In this document: positions 19,377 through 32,084 of the stretch, one piece after another
How positions within the stretch are numbered: the stretch's first letter is position 1
Layout: each line of letters opens with the position of its first letter
Source of the DNA: a virus
IMG/VR virus record: IMGVR_UViG_3300046466_000080
Location: 1-32,084 of that record
Direction: 5' to 3' (one strand)
DNA length: 32,084 nucleotides
The notes under the pieces: generated by a model
Told to the model about the DNA's origin: nothing
Databases searched by the model: none
The model's input: only the letters and a program-made list of their open reading frames with translations
Program-made: the position numbers and the translations under genes

Positions 19377-20891
19377 TTAAAATAATTTTATTTGTGAATC
19401 AGGTTTTTGTTTTTCTTGTTCATATTTAATTCTTGCTTTTGCTATTTCAATATATTCTTTTTCTCTTTCAATACCTATAAAATCAAACCCACCTCTTACT
19501 GCAGCTTTGCCTGTTGAACCAGAACCCATAAAAGGATCAAGTGTTGTTCCTCTTTCAGGAGTTACTAACCTAATAAGATATAACATTAAATCAGTTGGTT
19601 TTACAGTTGGATGATTATTCTTACTCGGTGCTTTTTCACTACCGTACTTGCCACTTGAAGAATTTACATCATTTTCATAATTACCAATTCCACCTCCACC
19701 TCCTACTGTTTGTTTTGTTTCAAACTCATCTAACCCTTCATTTCTATCTCTTTTAGATGTTTTAGGACAATAGAAGAAACGAGATGCACCACCTACATCG
19801 CCAAGACCAGGATTTTCATTTCTTACTTCTCCATTATATCTACCATTCCATATTCCTTCTTTGTTTCCACTTCTACCTCCTGTGGATTTACTAATACCAC
19901 TTTGTTCATCAAGTATCTTACCTGCTTCTTCATCAAAGATAATGTTTGCAGGGAAACGTCCAGATGGATTTCCGTCTCTTGAGGTATTTTGAACAGTTTT
20001 ACTTTTTAAGTAAGAACTACCTCCATAAATATTTTTATTATTGTTTGTTATTCTAATCGCCTTATTTTCATTTTCAATTCTACTCGCATCTATGTTTATT
20101 CCACCAGTTCCCCATTCTAATACATTATTAACTACTGTTCCTTTAAAAGGTTTTCTTGCCATAACAATAGGTTCGTGTGCAGGTTTGAGTGCAGTTCCCC
20201 AACCTTCCCATTCTGAATTGCCTTTTGTTATGTCTATACTTTCTTTTCTTTTTTGTCCTTCTGTATTCCATTGATAACGACCTGAAGAATAAAATCTAAA
20301 ATTGTCATCGTTTGTTTGTTTGCCAATAACTTCTCGTTTAGTTTCAATAATAGGATTGTTTTCTAAATTTAATATTTCTATAAGTTTATTAAATTGTTCT
20401 GGTGTTATACGACCCCTACCAGTTTCCCAATTAGATACAGAGCCTCCGTGATTTGTTTTTCCATAAAATTTACCAAGTTCAGCTAATTGTATAGTAGATA
20501 AACCTATTTCTAATCTTTTTTTCTTTACAAGGTCAGCAACTTCTTTACCAAGTAAATTGCCACCTTGTTTATCTACTGCTTTACCTATGTTGTGTGATTT
20601 AGGAAACCCACTACCATAAACCCACATTATCTGATCTCTAATTTCAAACCCTGCATCTTCAATTCTAACTGCCATTCTATGATAAGTTCTTGAACCTGCA
20701 AACGCTAAAAGATGTCCACCTGGTTTTAGAACTCTCAAACACTCAATCCAAATATCTACACTTGGAACATCATAATCCCACTTCTTGCCCATAAAAGATA
20801 AACCATAAGGAGGGTCAGTAACAATACTATCTACTGAACTGTCATCTAACTCTTTGAGTTTATATAAACAATCTTGGTTATATATTTTCAT
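19377..20891 (-). CDS. DNA methyltransferase (DPPY type) with inserted HTH domain, 504 aa
   Basis: Site-specific adenine-N6 or cytosine-N4 methyltransferase. Motif IV TDPPYGL is at residues 25-31 and motif I DPFMGSGSTG at 452-461; DPPY before FxGxG is the beta-class order. Between them, residues about 110-180 form an XRE-like helix-turn-helix (KKKRLEIGLSTIQLAELGKF, then SVSNWETGRG), a DNA-binding module inside the target-recognition region. The stretch about 270-400 is glycine-, serine- and asparagine-rich, with ASRFFYCPKTSKRDR. The C-terminus has the usual HPTVKPTDLMLYLIR. No matching restriction enzyme is adjacent, so it probably protects phage DNA or regulates expression. Its ATG overlaps the stop of the preceding coiled-coil gene. 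Confidence 0.88.
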   Translation of the reverse strand: MKIYNQDCLYKLKELDDSSVDSIVTDPPYGLSFMGKKWDYDVPSVDIWIECLRVLKPGGHLLAFAGSRTYHRMAVRIEDAGFEIRDQIMWVYGSGFPKSHNIGKAVDKQGGNLLGKEVADLVKKKRLEIGLSTIQLAELGKFYGKTNHGGSVSNWETGRGRITPEQFNKLIEILNLENNPIIETKREVIGKQTNDDNFRFYSSGRYQWNTEGQKRKESIDITKGNSEWEGWGTALKPAHEPIVMARKPFKGTVVNNVLEWGTGGINIDASRIENENKAIRITNNNKNIYGGSSYLKSKTVQNTSRDGNPSGRFPANIIFDEEAGKILDEQSGISKSTGGRSGNKEGIWNGRYNGEVRNENPGLGDVGGASRFFYCPKTSKRDRNEGLDEFETKQTVGGGGGIGNYENDVNSSSGKYGSEKAPSKNNHPTVKPTDLMLYLIRLVTPERGTTLDPFMGSGSTGKAAVRGGFDFIGIEREKEYIEIAKARIKYEQEKQKPDSQIKLF

Positions 20892-22352: not shown

Positions 22353-22784
22353 TTAATAAGGTTCGTTAAGATTAATTCTTGTAGCTTGATTTTCTTTGAG
22401 TAAGTAAACAGGTTTAAGTAATCTTTTTTTAGTCCATAGTGTAGTATCTGGACAGTACATATCTACTGGTTCTGGAAGTTCTAATGCATTTAACCAGTAT
22501 AGATAGTTTCCTTTAGGGTCATTAACGAAATATAGTTTGACTACTTTTTTATCCATTTTCATTAATGCATCATATTTATATTTTTCTAACATTTTTTCTT
22601 CATAGTATTTGTTTCTAAATTTCATTTCTATAACACAAGGATTTCCTTTAGGTGTGAATCCACAAGCGTCATAATGTTTAAAACCATCTCCAGTCCATTC
22701 TAAATTCCAGCCATCCATATTTAAGAAAGCTACTAATACTTTTTCAAACTTTTTTATTGTTTCAATTCCCATTGTTCCAAACAA
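22353..22784 (-). CDS. Putative PD-(D/E)XK nuclease-like protein, 143 aa
   Basis: Residues 36-56 read KHYDACGFTPKGNPCVIEMKF: an aspartate, a short turn, then a strand ending E-x-K (D39, E53, K55), as in the PD-(D/E)XK nuclease core, preceded by a helix and followed by a helix with KYKYDALMKMDKKV. The C-terminal half is rich in proline and tryptophan. Neighbouring FEN exonuclease fits a recombination or DNA-processing role. The fold assignment is by pattern only, and the annotation in phages is usually hypothetical. Start could be M1 or M5; M1 overlaps the upstream gene by 23 bases. Confidence 0.5.
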   Translation of the reverse strand: MFGTMGIETIKKFEKVLVAFLNMDGWNLEWTGDGFKHYDACGFTPKGNPCVIEMKFRNKYYEEKMLEKYKYDALMKMDKKVVKLYFVNDPKGNYLYWLNALELPEPVDMYCPDTTLWTKKRLLKPVYLLKENQATRINLNEPY

Positions 22785-24502: not shown

Positions 24503-24796
24503 TTAAAATGGTAGATCATTAGATACTGGAGCTGTAGTATTCTCTTGTTCTCTTTCAGCTAACTTAATAATGTCGTTAGTCCATACTACTTTACCGTTAC
24601 CAAGATAGTTTCTTTGTACTTTGGCATCTCTTTCTTCTTTTGTTTGAGAATCCATTAAAGCCACGTTGTTACCGTATCTTGTATCGTCATTTACTGAAAT
24701 GGTTAAGTTATAATAAACTGCACCATCTTTACCTTTGATAAATTTTTCTTTAGGTAATTTATCTACCCTAATACTCGCATTGATAATTGCACTCAT
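24503..24796 (-). CDS. ssb: Single-stranded DNA-binding protein, 97 aa
   Basis: A short OB-fold-like protein. Residues 1-55 contain the strands of a small SSB (SAIINASIRVDKLPKEKF, then GAVYYNLTISVNDD), and VVWTNDIIKLAERE is near 70-83. The protein ends in NDLPF (93-97), the acidic-hydrophobic tip by which SSB proteins recruit partners. At 97 residues it is shorter than cellular SSB (about 150-180). It precedes the helicase gene across a terminator and follows the nuclease gene, in a replication and recombination context. Confidence 0.78.
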   Translation of the reverse strand: MSAIINASIRVDKLPKEKFIKGKDGAVYYNLTISVNDDTRYGNNVALMDSQTKEERDAKVQRNYLGNGKVVWTNDIIKLAEREQENTTAPVSNDLPF

Positions 24797-24820
24797 AATT
24801 TATTGATTTTATTAATTAAT

Positions 24821-25333
24821 TTATATTTTTTTTAAGCTATCTTTTTTATAAAAAACAAGAGGTTTAAATTTTTTTATACCATTATTATTTTTACCATCCC
24901 AAATTCTATGAACATTATTTAATTTTATAGTATAAAACCCTTCATATTTTCCTTTATGGTTAAATACAATCCAAACTTCTTTTTGTGTTTTTTCTTGTAT
25001 TTTTTTATATTCTTTAAAGTGTTTTAAGTCAAAACCTGTTTCTATTATTCCGTTAGTAGTATTCCATTGTTTTTTACTTTTTACTTCAATATAAATACTT
25101 TCTTTATTTTCGTTATAACAATCTAAATCAGGTAAAGTTATTTTGCCTTTTTTTGAAAGCAAAAAAGGTGCGTGTTCTTTATTAAATTGGTATAAAGGTA
25201 AAACAGTATAGCCAATATCTAATAATTTTAATGCTACTTCTTTTTCTCCTTCTTCCCCAAACTTTAAAAGTTTTTTAAAATTTTCCATCCTCTGCTCCAT
25301 AAGTAAACCAGTTTTCCCTTTTTTCTCTTGCAA
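24821..25333 (-). CDS. PD-(D/E)XK endonuclease-like protein, 170 aa
   Basis: A canonical nuclease core is visible: an N-terminal helix with GEEGEKEVALKLLDIGY (E30 a candidate metal ligand), then TLPDLDCYNENKE and SIYIEVKSKKQW, giving P68-D69 and E83-V-K85. The C-terminal half has strands consistent with the fold. I cannot tell a restriction enzyme from a recombination nuclease. The first possible ATG (25333) overlaps the methyltransferase by 58 bases; starts at M12 or M16 (25300 or 25288) would give a shorter overlap and keep the core. The overlap with an adenine methyltransferase gene suggests linked expression, as in restriction-modification pairs. Confidence 0.68.
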   Translation of the reverse strand: MQEKKGKTGLLMEQRMENFKKLLKFGEEGEKEVALKLLDIGYTVLPLYQFNKEHAPFLLSKKGKITLPDLDCYNENKESIYIEVKSKKQWNTTNGIIETGFDLKHFKEYKKIQEKTQKEVWIVFNHKGKYEGFYTIKLNNVHRIWDGKNNNGIKKFKPLVFYKKDSLKKI

Positions 25334-26390
25334 AATAATCTAATTTATAACCAGCAGTCATATTATCAACTTTAGTGTAAAATGCTTCTGGTTTTCTACT
25401 GTGTTCACGTCTTGGTTCTGTAATAATATCACGTTCTCCTGAACCATTTAAAATAGGATTACCTTTAGTGGCAAGTAAACAAAATTCAACTTGCATTCTT
25501 ATATTTCTACCCATACCCATTTTAACTTTATCCCATACTATTGTTGCTTTATAATTAAATCCCCAAGCATTTAATAAATCAAAAGAATCTTTTAAAAAAG
25601 CGTGAGTAGTCCAAAGAAACATAACACAATCGTTTTTTGCAGGAATTTTTATATTTTTTAATTCTTCTACTGTCATAGTAGGATAATCAACACCCCCACG
25701 ATTTCCGTTATCTTCAAATGATTTAGAACTACTGCCTCCACGTTCTGAATACTCCCAAGGTGGATCAATCGCTATTACATCATATAAACCATTTGGTGCT
25801 TTTAAACCTTTAGAAATTTCTTGTTTTATTTCTTCTATTTTTTCAAGTCTAATTTTCTTTTTTTCTTCTTTCTTAATTTCTTGGTAAGCTGCATTAATAC
25901 TTACTTCGCCTGTAGATAGTTTTGCTTTAACTTCATCTGTAGCTTTTTCTTGTATTTTTTTTACTTTAGCTATTGTATCGTGTCCAACATTAGCAACTTT
26001 ACCTATTTTTTTTATTGTTCTACCCTGTTCTGATTTAAGTACAGGGTTACCACTTAACATTCTTTCTTTAGCCTTGTTACTAAACACTTCTTCAAGTTGT
26101 AATGCTAAAACACTTCTTTGATAGTTGCTTAAATTTCTTCTACCAAATTGGTTTAGAATCATCCATTCTTTTACAGCTTCTTCATCTTTAAAATGCTTTG
26201 TTTCAGTTTGAATTTCTAAATCCCACTTCAAAGATATTTCATAACGGTTATGTCCATCTATAATAAAACCATTCCACACAAGTATTTTTTCTCTTATACC
26301 TTCATCTAAACAATTTTGTTCTAATTGCTTAAATTCTTCTTTAGTTAAAGCTGGTATTAAACTTTTAAATTCTTCTTTTATTTTTATCAC
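25275..26390 (-). CDS. ParB-domain plus MT-A70 adenine methyltransferase, 371 aa
   Basis: Fusion of a ParB/Srx-like N-terminal domain and an MT-A70 adenine methyltransferase. Residues 1-110 contain FIIDGHNRYEISL (42-54), the ParB nucleotide-binding box, and a QFGRRNLSNYQRSVLALQLE helix. About 122-170 holds a helix-turn-helix (IKKIGKVANVGHDTIAKVKK). The catalytic part starts near 203 with VIAIDPPWEY (DPPW at 209-212) and ends YFAREKRENWFTYG. ParB-MT-A70 fusions are common in phages and target N6 of adenine in DNA; the ParB part probably supplies DNA binding. Its stop is inside the nuclease gene, and it follows a 59-aa gene. Confidence 0.88.
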   Translation of the reverse strand: MIKIKEEFKSLIPALTKEEFKQLEQNCLDEGIREKILVWNGFIIDGHNRYEISLKWDLEIQTETKHFKDEEAVKEWMILNQFGRRNLSNYQRSVLALQLEEVFSNKAKERMLSGNPVLKSEQGRTIKKIGKVANVGHDTIAKVKKIQEKATDEVKAKLSTGEVSINAAYQEIKKEEKKKIRLEKIEEIKQEISKGLKAPNGLYDVIAIDPPWEYSERGGSSSKSFEDNGNRGGVDYPTMTVEELKNIKIPAKNDCVMFLWTTHAFLKDSFDLLNAWGFNYKATIVWDKVKMGMGRNIRMQVEFCLLATKGNPILNGSGERDIITEPRREHSRKPEAFYTKVDNMTAGYKLDYFAREKRENWFTYGAEDGKF

Positions 26391-26393
26391 TTG

Positions 26394-26573
26394 TTAATTT
26401 TTATTAATGTTTTCTTTTGTAATCCATTTTCCTTGATGGTCAATAACTGTATAGTTATGTTCCGTTAATAAAACTATAGCTTCATTTATTTCTTTAGCTG
26501 TTTTTCTATAGTGATTAAATATTTGATTCTCAAATGGATGATGGTCTTTTTCTTTATATATTTTGTCAGCCAT
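26394..26573 (-). CDS. Unknown small protein, 59 aa
   Basis: A 59-codon frame from the ATG at 26573, which lies inside the end of the possible annealing protein, to a stop three bases before the methyltransferase. The product is helical and polar: DHHPFENQIFNHYRKTAKEI near 10-29, then a LLTEHNYTVIDHQGKWI tail. No family recognised. Gap-filling position and overlap support it as a real gene. Confidence 0.6.
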   Translation of the reverse strand: MADKIYKEKDHHPFENQIFNHYRKTAKEINEAIVLLTEHNYTVIDHQGKWITKENINKN

Positions 26574-27306: not shown

Positions 27307-27696
27307 TTAGTTTAACTCTTTTATTAACATATTATAATGATTTATTAACTCGTGGATTTCAGTTGTGGAGAATTTAGTTATTTGTTTTGCTTTGTAATAA
27401 AGTGATTCTGCACATCCAGCTCCGTATTCTAAATCTAAATTTTTTCCAAATACAAATTGTTCTCCATACTTAAATACATTGCACCCTGCACATTGTACTT
27501 GACAATTTATTTCATCGAAACGAGTAGAATAATATTTACGACTTTGAAAATGACCACATTGTAATTTTTTCCAATGATCTTTTTTGCCACAAGTAAAACA
27601 TTGTGCTATTCCATTTTTAGCATAACGTTGTCTAATATATAAACTGAATACTTTGTCAAGTTTTTTAATTAATTTACTTCTTGTTAATTTTTTCAT
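27307..27696 (-). CDS. ninG: NinG/Rap-like recombination endonuclease, 129 aa
   Basis: Lambda NinG (Rap) family: a zinc-binding, HNH-related nuclease acting on branched DNA. Visible marks are FTCGKK (CxxC near residues 33-38), LQCGHFQSRKYYSTRF around 45-60, and QCAGCNVFKYGEQF near 68-81 with the second cysteine pair and an asparagine. Length is slightly under the lambda protein (about 204) because the N-terminal part is shorter. Its start overlaps the mini zinc ribbon gene, and a strong terminator follows its end. Confidence 0.82.
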   Translation of the reverse strand: MKKLTRSKLIKKLDKVFSLYIRQRYAKNGIAQCFTCGKKDHWKKLQCGHFQSRKYYSTRFDEINCQVQCAGCNVFKYGEQFVFGKNLDLEYGAGCAESLYYKAKQITKFSTTEIHELINHYNMLIKELN

Positions 27697-30253: not shown

Positions 30254-32084
30254 CTAATTTTTACATTTACATTCTTGTTTCAATTTGTCTACTTCTGCTT
30301 TTAGCTCTTGTATTGATTTTACAAGTAATGGAACAATTTTAGAATAATCAACAGATTGCATTTCTTCTGCATCTTTATCTCCTACAACTGCTTGAGGTAA
30401 AACTTCTTGTAGTTCGTGTGCCATAACACCATAACTTCTGCTTTCATCTGTTTTCCATTTAAAGTCATAAATAGGTATTTTAGAAACTTTGTTAAGTCCG
30501 TTAAAGTCTTGTAAATCTTCTTTTAATCTATAATCAGAAGTTGTATTATAATTAGTTGTTGTACCTCCAGAAGTTGTAATAGTACCAACAGAAGTTCCTG
30601 CAGAAGTAAAAAACTCTATTTGATAATTATTAGAAGGATTAGCCGACAAGTTTAATCTACCTGCACCTGAACCTGCTTGGTCACCCATATTAATTAACCC
30701 TGAACTGTCTATTAATAACCTTGTAGTTCCAGTTGTTGCAAAAGAAACCTCAGACTGACCTAATGCAGCAATTCTATTACCTGCTGTAATATCCATTATA
30801 GCTAAAACCTCAGCATTACCACCATTACTTTTAAAAGCATAAGTGTTTCCGTTTCCGTGTGTAGATTTTAATTTTAGAAGGCTTGTGGTTTCTCCATTTC
30901 CTGCAACATTAAGTATAGCATCTGTAGTTGCTGATGTACCAATTATTACATTTCCTGCAAAAGTTGCGTTTCCTGAACTGTCTATACTTAAGGGTGTTTG
31001 TTGATTTTGACCATCATTTTCTAATTGAATAAAATCAAAAGTTCCGCGAGCTGTGCCACTCCCCCAAGACCAATATCTAGTACCATTACTAGCATAATCG
31101 ATTGCTGTACCATTATATGTGTAAGTTCCTGCTGAACCTGGCGAAGTTATATCATTAGTTATAAAAACTCCTCCATTCACAGTAAGTTTTTGTGGAGGCG
31201 ATGTTTCTCCAATTCCTACGTTTCCTGAACTGTCTATACGCATTCTTTCATCAAAAACACCAGAATTTCTAGTTAAAAAAGCTAAATCTGCTGAACTTAC
31301 ATTAGAAGTTTGTATAGCTTGAATGGCAGCACCTCCAGTTGTTGAACCTGACCAACCAGTAACAGCAAATCGAATACCAACAGTTTCACCGTTTGTATTG
31401 TCTGTATTTTTTCTTTCTATTAGTAAATCTGATACTGGAGTTGTAGTACTATAAGTAGAAGAATCTGTTTTTAGTACAGATACGTTTCCAGAACTGTCTA
31501 TGGTTAATCTTGCAACTGCTGCTGAACCAAAAGTCATAGAATCAGCAGAATGATTATAATTTACATAACCCCTATATGCTGCATTTCCTGATGTACCATC
31601 AGCAAACATAAGATAGTTATTGTCTGATGTAGCATTTGACCTTATTGTAATACCTCCTAAATCAGCTTTTGCTTTTACAACTAAATCTGGCGAAAAATAA
31701 CTTGAAGGTGATGTTTCATTAATTCCTACGTTTCCTGAACTATCTATACGCATTCTTTCACCCCAAGTACCAGCATTTCTTGTTAAAAAAGCTAAATCTG
31801 CTGAACTTGCATTAGAGGGTTGTATAGCTTCAATAGCAGCACCTCCAGTTGTTGAACCTGACCAACCAGTAACATCAAATCTAATACCAACCGTTTCATC
31901 ATTTGTATTTCCTGTATTTTTTCTTGATAATATTAAATCTGCTACTGGAGTTGTAGAACTATAAGTAGAAGAATCTGTTTTTAGTACAGATACGTTTCCA
32001 GAACTGTCTATACGCATTGATTCTGAACCACCTGTATTTAATATCATTGAATCAGTTGCAGTTAAATACATATCTGCACCTGCA
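30254..32084 (-). CDS. Giant tail fibre protein, C-terminal part with S74 chaperone domain
   Basis: The frame is open to the window edge; the first in-window Met (32071) is probably internal, because four more codons lie upstream in frame. At least 609 residues remain. The protein is built of beta-rich modules joined by the motif RIDSSGNVGI-N/G-ETSP. A 170-residue module is duplicated (DNA repeats 31221-31500 and 31731-32010). The last 94 residues are an intramolecular chaperone of the S74 type: TSDYRLKEDL carries the Ser-Lys catalytic pair, followed by IPIYDFKWK, YGVMAHELQEVLP and a C-terminal coiled coil. Family knowledge: this domain trims itself off after trimer folding. Together with 1-2850 it forms one very long fibre gene; the middle is missing. 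Confidence 0.88.
   Translation of the reverse strand, partial: AGADMYLTATDSMILNTGGSESMRIDSSGNVSVLKTDSSTYSSTTPVADLILSRKNTGNTNDETVGIRFDVTGWSGSTTGGAAIEAIQPSNASSADLAFLTRNAGTWGERMRIDSSGNVGINETSPSSYFSPDLVVKAKADLGGITIRSNATSDNNYLMFADGTSGNAAYRGYVNYNHSADSMTFGSAAVARLTIDSSGNVSVLKTDSSTYSTTTPVSDLLIERKNTDNTNGETVGIRFAVTGWSGSTTGGAAIQAIQTSNVSSADLAFLTRNSGVFDERMRIDSSGNVGIGETSPPQKLTVNGGVFITNDITSPGSAGTYTYNGTAIDYASNGTRYWSWGSGTARGTFDFIQLENDGQNQQTPLSIDSSGNATFAGNVIIGTSATTDAILNVAGNGETTSLLKLKSTHGNGNTYAFKSNGGNAEVLAIMDITAGNRIAALGQSEVSFATTGTTRLLIDSSGLINMGDQAGSGAGRLNLSANPSNNYQIEFFTSAGTSVGTITTSGGTTTNYNTTSDYRLKEDLQDFNGLNKVSKIPIYDFKWKTDESRSYGVMAHELQEVLPQAVVGDKDAEEMQSVDYSKIVPLLVKSIQELKAEVDKLKQECKCKN
31221..31500. repeat. 280-bp fibre repeat, copy A
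   Basis: Similar but not identical to 31731-32010 (period 510 bases, 170 codons). Differences are scattered and include silent changes, so the duplication is not recent. It encodes a module with TVGIRFAVTGWSGSTTGG and DLAFLTRN. Confidence 0.85.
31643..31741. repeat. 99-bp exact direct repeat, copy 2
   Basis: Identical to bases 1-99, same orientation, inside the fibre gene. The sequences differ on the inner side of both copies, so this is an internal gene repeat and not terminal redundancy of the molecule. Confidence 0.9.
31731..32010. repeat. 280-bp fibre repeat, copy B
   Basis: Partner of 31221-31500 in the same frame of the fibre gene. It ends 74 bases before the window edge. Confidence 0.85.

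Follow-up and report, generated by a model that had tools for sequence, protein, structure and literature searches.

A ParB-like methyltransferase gene and its overlapping nuclease gene as a probable exchangeable restriction–modification-like cassette in related uncultured phages

Methyltransferases of phages are usually read as anti-restriction orphans. The locus described here, found in a virus record of IMG/VR, raises the question of whether a phage methyltransferase may instead act together with a nuclease encoded next to it. The original prediction for this locus had noted a ParB-MT-A70 methyltransferase gene directly followed by an overlapping nuclease-like gene and had left two readings side by side, a compact restriction–modification-like unit and a recombination nuclease that is only a neighbor. 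Our analysis indicates that the two genes are probably an exchangeable, phage-borne cassette of the type II restriction–modification-like kind. In the following, the window means the whole stretch of DNA that was analyzed (32,084 nucleotides), and L numbers are our handles for the sequences compared with it.

The two genes and their surroundings in the window

The window is AT-rich, with its long genes on the minus strand, and the Pfam and PHROG annotation of the neighboring genes locates the cassette in the replication region of the genome. The features concerned are as follows.

1-32084: the window, a 32,084-base virus record (IMG/VR IMGVR_UViG_3300046466_000080)
24503..24796 (-): right neighbor, a small SSB-like gene (phrog_24909, unknown; function inferred)
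24817..26396 (-): the whole cassette of 1580 bases, which the empty-site relative L097 lacks
24821..25300 (-): putative PD-(D/E)XK-type nuclease gene of family C, likeliest ATG start at 25300, 159 aa
25275..26390 (-): ParB-like/MT-A70 methyltransferase gene, GTG start, 371 aa
26566..26994 (-): left neighbor, phrog_22961 (PHROG, unknown function), which adjoins the SSB-like gene in cassette-less relatives
27307-27696: NinG-type junction endonuclease gene, upstream of the cassette (Pfam, PHROG)

Downstream of the cassette lie the SSB-like gene, an AAA ATPase gene, a sigma-factor-like gene, and a 5'-3' exonuclease gene (Pfam, PHROG). The nearest cultured relative by terminase was Nonlabens phage P12024L, with an identity of 59%, and a flavobacterial host is therefore likely. 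Bases 1-115 of the window recur with 97% identity at about 31643-31758, inside a repetitive tail-protein ORF, which could mean a nearly circular record or simply a repetitive one. The window also carries, at 19377-20891 (-), a second methyltransferase gene of the N6_N4 type (Pfam, E 4.1e-33), whose product has a weak HTH_3 match mid-protein (residues 123-176); a nuclease-like neighbor was absent by eye, making it an orphan in the same genome, and the corresponding stretch of L002 holds an unrelated-looking methyltransferase-like ORF of 222 aa. A small protein encoded at 22353-22784 (-) has a possible PD-(D/E)XK-like stretch, VIEMKFRNKYY, which was seen by eye also in L002-L005, and a convincing family match for this protein was not found in Pfam, PHROGs, NCBIfam, or PADLOC.

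The expectation of a DPPW methyltransferase with a putative ParB-like part was borne out. The protein matched Pfam MT-A70 at residues 203-367 (E 1.7e-23) and the PADLOC type II methyltransferase model PDLC03262 (E 6.6e-42), and its catalytic motif DPPW (residues 209-212) is intact, so that methyltransferase activity is predicted. The ParB-like part, at approximately residues 1-195, was recognized by PHROG only, with ParB families matching at E 1.4e-6 (phrog_12047, residues 42-192) and 0.0078. Pfam ParB_N did not match the window protein; among the paired relatives, it did match L250 and, below the cut-off, L185, both of which have a different kind of ParB. In L005:3785-4927, the protein is similar at both ends but diverges markedly at about residues 88-150, in the middle of the ParB part, as if that segment had been exchanged as well.

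The predicted nuclease-like ORF with a P-D...E-V-K core was likewise confirmed. Its frame runs from a TTG (24821-25333 (-), 170 aa), the ATG at 25300 being the likelier start, from which the gene overlaps the methyltransferase gene by 26 nt. The motifs stand in the order G-E-E-G-E, P-D, and E-V-K, which is kept in relatives; across an alignment of 15 relatives, no change was seen in the D, in the K of ExK, or in the helix E, and the first position of ExK was either E or D. The protein would thus have a restriction-type active site, judging by motif and model, and may be cognate to the methyltransferase. The nucleases are under purifying selection, with dN/dS medians by family of 0.10-0.39 and a highest single-pair value of 0.66, and dN/dS was lower for the methyltransferase than for the nuclease in most of the pairs printed.

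Library searches gave the window nuclease no name. Pfam, PHROGs, NCBIfam, PADLOC, and PDB sequences yielded chance-level matches only, and no curated resolvase family matched it at E up to 0.1 (Pfam, PHROGs) or up to 1 (NCBIfam). No tblastn match was obtained in 72,556 plasmid records, and the window nuclease and four other families had no match in 50,697 phage records. Library searches with ten nucleases of other families yielded weak or no matches, the best being in family B, with UPF0102 (E 0.0028) and PDDEXK_5 (E 0.077), neither of which reached the Pfam cut-offs; PHROG matches of unknown function were phrog_5018 for family B (E 9e-5) and phrog_13596 for family G (E 1.8e-5). None of the nucleases tested matched a restriction-enzyme model of PADLOC.

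Structure prediction covered two of the 11 nuclease families described below, the window's (C) and A. The AlphaFold2 model of the window nuclease (alignment A4; pLDDT 85, pTM 0.78) is a confident PD-(D/E)XK fold, for which the best match was the Holliday junction resolvase Hjc of A. fulgidus (Foldseek E 2.4e-6), with Z 14.0, an rmsd of 2.1 A over 113 aligned residues, and 12% identity. Further down stood SPARDA nucleases, reaching Z 10.3, then I-Ssp6803I, a homing enzyme (7.9), and NhoI, a restriction enzyme (7.2); the tool cautions that a Z below 8 can mean no more than a shared general arrangement. Family A (the L038 group; pLDDT 85, pTM 0.81) is unrelated in sequence to the window nuclease and occupies the same slot; its nearest folds were DpnI (Z 9.0), Eco15I (7.9), and PvuII (7.2), the last two values again being in the range under 8, and every Foldseek E was 0.001 or higher. 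By eye, a D ... E-x-K-like pattern is present in the consensus sequences of families B, D, E, I, and J; the consensus is less canonical for A, F, G, and H.

These folds bear on the second of the two readings, in which the nuclease would be an Hjc-like junction or recombination nuclease that stands beside an anti-restriction methyltransferase and is swapped with it merely through adjacency. The fold match to Hjc, the replication/recombination-like neighbors, and the existence of lone nucleases (see below) speak for it. However, the identity to Hjc is low and there is no Pfam match; a junction endonuclease of the NinG type is encoded by the phage already; and, as shown in the next sections, the nuclease family tracks the methyltransferase rather than the phage backbone and the pair persists with other front domains. 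Moreover, a plain recombination role fits less well because the unrelated family at the same slot is nearest to DpnI, Eco15I, and PvuII and because close relatives keep the region without the whole cassette. The grouping with recombination enzymes that would have spoken against a unit was thus seen in part, in the best fold match of the window nuclease, and we consider this explanation unlikely.

DpnI and Eco15I, at the top of the family A fold matches, also raised methyl-dependent (type IV-like) cutting. We hold this to be unlikely by reasoning, since the partner would then mark the phage's own DNA for cutting.

Pairing of methyltransferases with nuclease families

Relatives were collected by a ParB-methyltransferase scan of viral contigs, which gave 80 loci; together with the other loci at hand, there were 96 ParB-bearing ORFs, 63 of them distinct. 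Four of these are cut at the 3' end and were left out, as were L046, in whose remaining 202 nt no ORF was seen, and L091 (a ParB part without a methyltransferase). The remaining 57 include L010, found via its nuclease, and L093 (Methanoculleus virus L4768), found via annotated phage records. As a result, every one of these 57 distinct ParB-methyltransferases with room was followed by a small coupled ORF of 112-210 aa, starting at -87 to +4 nt from the methyltransferase stop. They are therefore not orphans in the sense of having no companion, and in the window the companion nuclease gene is adjacent.

The downstream proteins fell into 11 sequence families (E below 1e-10), and the methyltransferase domains behind the ParB part were of several unrelated types, from MT-A70 to N6_N4-like. 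A first clustering had fused families A and H, in both of which some members end in TRGIACIDNTKI, the right junction of the slot read in frame. Because this shared end had joined the two, the clustering was repeated with stricter coverage and E-value, after which profile comparison gave probabilities of 43% for A-H, 97% for B-C, and 93% for B-D; some nuclease families may accordingly be distant relatives of each other, as judged from their profiles.

The next gene changes with METHYLTRANSFERASE across the 57 distinct ParB-methyltransferases and 11 families. On the ParB tree (106 columns), the nuclease label needed 37 changes, against a mean of 40.6 after shuffling, a value as low being reached in 6 of 200 shuffles. 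On the tree of methyltransferase domains, it needed 10 changes, the minimum for 11 labels, against a shuffled mean of 40.7, and none of 200 shuffles was as low. Where the ParB parts were at least 95% identical, the nuclease family differed in 46 of 58 locus pairs. Median methyltransferase identity was 82% within nuclease families and 23% between them; as an exception, the methyltransferases of L015 (family C) and L018 (family J) are 81% identical and their nucleases differ. Thus, in these related uncultured phages, the ParB part is constant, and the methyltransferase domain and the nuclease swap together. This linkage supports a cognate action of the two proteins, short of proof, since adjacent genes also travel together without a functional reason.

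To approach the pairing from the other side, families B, D, and E were used for nuclease-side scans, in which distinct sequences with upstream room were counted. A methyltransferase lay directly upstream in 81 of 91 cases (B/C, 52/59; D, 12/12; E, 17/20), so that, together with the 57 coupled loci, the pair was found to recur in other genomes, and the rare co-occurrence that would have spoken against a unit was not seen. Fifteen of the 81 paired nucleases (B/C, 8; D, 3; E, 4) lacked this type of ParB. Their methyltransferases bear alternative front parts, including a second ParB kind, PF02195 (L185, L250), DUF3102 (L200), and parts unnamed by Pfam (L192, L219, L260); therefore, the methyltransferase-nuclease pair holds across a change of the front domain.

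The pairing is strong, not absolute. Ten distinct lone nucleases, with no methyltransferase of these types directly upstream, were found in families B and E (L194, L195, L199, L203, L204, L209, and L227; L266, L277, and L284), with another methyltransferase ORF lying right behind the lone nuclease in L194. L131 and L132, whose nucleases occupy the slot itself, bring the lone nucleases to 12. Among the 14 lone-nuclease records, which include duplicates and are perhaps fragments, MT-A70 was detected in none and N6_N4 methyltransferases in three, the positive control giving 5/5.

In 11.3 million bacterial and archaeal contigs, there were no relatives of the family B nuclease. The ParB-methyltransferase search of the same contigs gave 37 loci, of which 34 were ParB without a methyltransferase of the types seen here and three were fusions (L286, Ningiella; L287, Vicingaceae; L288, Chitinophagaceae). 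All three fusions have a coupled downstream ORF, that of L287 resembling family A by eye.

Site avoidance was examined as a trace of restriction. In the window, CATG occurs 0 times against 87.9 expected, CTAG 5 against 83.7, CTNAG 3 against 59.6, and GAATTC 0 against 11.5, and many related phage contigs avoid the same palindromes, which suggests heavy restriction pressure from the host. Among 7 lone-nuclease contigs, 12 paired ones, and the window, no palindrome gave a clean contrast of being avoided by lone-nuclease phages and tolerated by paired ones; nearly all of these sequences avoid several of CATG, CTAG, GATC, and GGCC. It is conceivable on this ground that the methyltransferase serves anti-restriction and that the nuclease is a general enzyme, degrading host DNA or countering defense independently of methylation, and the occurrence of lone nucleases would agree with that. 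Such a division of labor does not account, however, for the way in which each type of methyltransferase stays with its own nuclease family when cassettes are swapped, and it appears quite improbable to us.

Gain, loss, and swapping at one site

Comparison with the empty-site relative L097, whose flanks are 97.5% and 98.6% identical to those of the window with a 12-nt AT-rich overlap, placed the borders of the cassette 7 nt before the methyltransferase start and about 5 nt past the nuclease stop, exactly enclosing the two ORFs. We extended the border comparison to 58 loci (the 57 and L091), 33 of which, from families A-I, have both flanks in an empty-site relative. In 23 of these, the borders deviated by no more than 15 nt from the methyltransferase start and the nuclease stop. 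The mobile unit is therefore the two ORFs. For 13 of the 33 loci, the other DNA at this place in the empty-site relative amounts to at most 11 nt, and for 20 to 93-282 nt; some empty-site phages, such as L162:3660-3990, have 263-282 nt of other DNA in the slot. At several nuclease ends, the conserved stretch before the SSB-like gene reads as the same terminal peptide that had misled the first clustering.

The SSB-like gene follows the slot with or without the cassette and served as an unbiased anchor. Among the 80 loci that it gave, a ParB-methyltransferase was present in seven, and in all seven the nuclease lay directly before the SSB-like gene; in the remaining loci, mostly a phrog_22961-type gene adjoins the SSB-like gene, and seven have less than 350 nt upstream. 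Taken together, these comparisons show that the two genes come, go, and are exchanged together at a single site. The same pair was also observed in L004, a 95.7-kb contig, with a nuclease 79% and a methyltransferase 87% identical, among different neighbors: a RecB/Cas4-like ORF upstream (by eye) and a DnaA-like HTH gene and terminase genes downstream.

Precise presence or absence at one site is also what a homing-type mobile gene would produce, the nuclease cutting the empty slot so that the cassette is copied in, with the methyltransferase as cargo or as protection of the new copy. Lone family-E-like nucleases at this very slot, beside the SSB-like gene (L131:1195-1692 and L132:277-768), and the fold similarity to I-Ssp6803I would accord with such a gene. 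It would require, however, that eleven nuclease families all have the same slot as target; pairs also occur elsewhere, as in L004 and in the loci with other front domains, and the shared ParB sequence and right flank can account for the swapping. We therefore regard homing as highly doubtful.

Proposed role and comparison with known systems

The suggestion of a compact restriction–modification-like unit thus gained from the matched swapping, the two-ORF insertion, and the pairing that persists without this ParB; its activity side stands as a prediction. In the restriction–modification-like reading, which we prefer, the methyltransferase domain would place a mark on a short site in the DNA of the phage itself, and the overlapping nuclease would cut DNA without that mark. 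The ParB-like part could serve as an unchanging platform, perhaps as a nucleotide-dependent DNA clamp by which the methyltransferase reaches phage DNA during replication, and it may at the same time be the shared sequence at which cassettes recombine, which is consistent with the data. The main use would most likely be to cut the DNA of phages of a different type, whether they co-infect or arrive later, and host DNA would come second as a target. We favor such phage-phage competition because a changing specificity helps against rivals and is unneeded for host-DNA degradation and because a lone methyltransferase would suffice for escaping host restriction. According to the available part of the source (PMC7019647), the packaged nucleases of chloroviruses break down host DNA and are not the cause of mutual exclusion, which calls for caution about this preference.

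We tentatively put forward, as a possibility, that the slot is a specificity exchange, in which the constant and probably nucleotide-gated ParB platform is joined with any of at least 11 methyltransferase-nuclease pairs. Related phages with incompatible restriction specificities would then destroy each other's DNA in mixed infections, and the polymorphism would be kept diverse by a rare-type advantage. If true, the locus would offer a concrete system for testing phage-phage restriction and a source of small, uncharacterized site-specific nucleases.

CviAII is one of the restriction–modification pairs encoded by chloroviruses. About a quarter of the chlorovirus methyltransferases have an adjacent companion nuclease gene, such as CviJI (PMC7019647), and the pairs described here share with them a virus-encoded methyltransferase with such a gene next to it. 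They differ in that the chlorovirus pairs belong to algal viruses and have no ParB part, and a fixed exchange slot is unmentioned in the available part of that article (PMC7019647). For phage genomes, only 9 restriction–modification systems in 831 are given in the accessible text of PMC4176335; a marine phage clade with a dedicated slot for at least 11 swappable methyltransferase-nuclease pairs would, if true, alter this picture of near absence.

Fusions of the ParB-CTPase fold are known from phages, where the partner is an N6_N4 methyltransferase, and from archaea, where it is MT-A70; they are thought to serve anti-defense or phage-host interaction (Kaljevic et al, 2025, PMC12704722). A linked nuclease is unmentioned in the available part of that article, whereas the methyltransferases described here are not orphans and are swapped with a nuclease. 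A ParB domain fused to an adenine methylase has also been described, its ParB part being reported to be a nonspecific nicking endonuclease (as cited in PMC5512222). There, as far as the accessible text goes, the nuclease is the ParB domain itself, whereas here it is a separate downstream PD-(D/E)XK protein. Unlike archaeal Hjc, its closest solved fold, the window nuclease is genetically linked to a DNA methyltransferase. In the open-licence full-text literature (PMC, by title), we found no description of linked nucleases of ParB-methyltransferases. The genes are thus of known kinds, and the arrangement, a constant ParB platform with swapped methyltransferase-nuclease pairs, was not found in print in that literature and is new as an arrangement.

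The cassette can also be compared with type II restriction–modification systems. It shares with them the adjacent genes for a methyltransferase and a PD-(D/E)XK nuclease, co-inherited and exchanged as a pair, as well as fast-diverging nucleases unlike any library model. It differs in that the methyltransferase bears a ParB-like or other front domain, that restriction and specificity are putative, that lone nucleases occur, and that the cassette lies in the replication region of lytic-looking phages.
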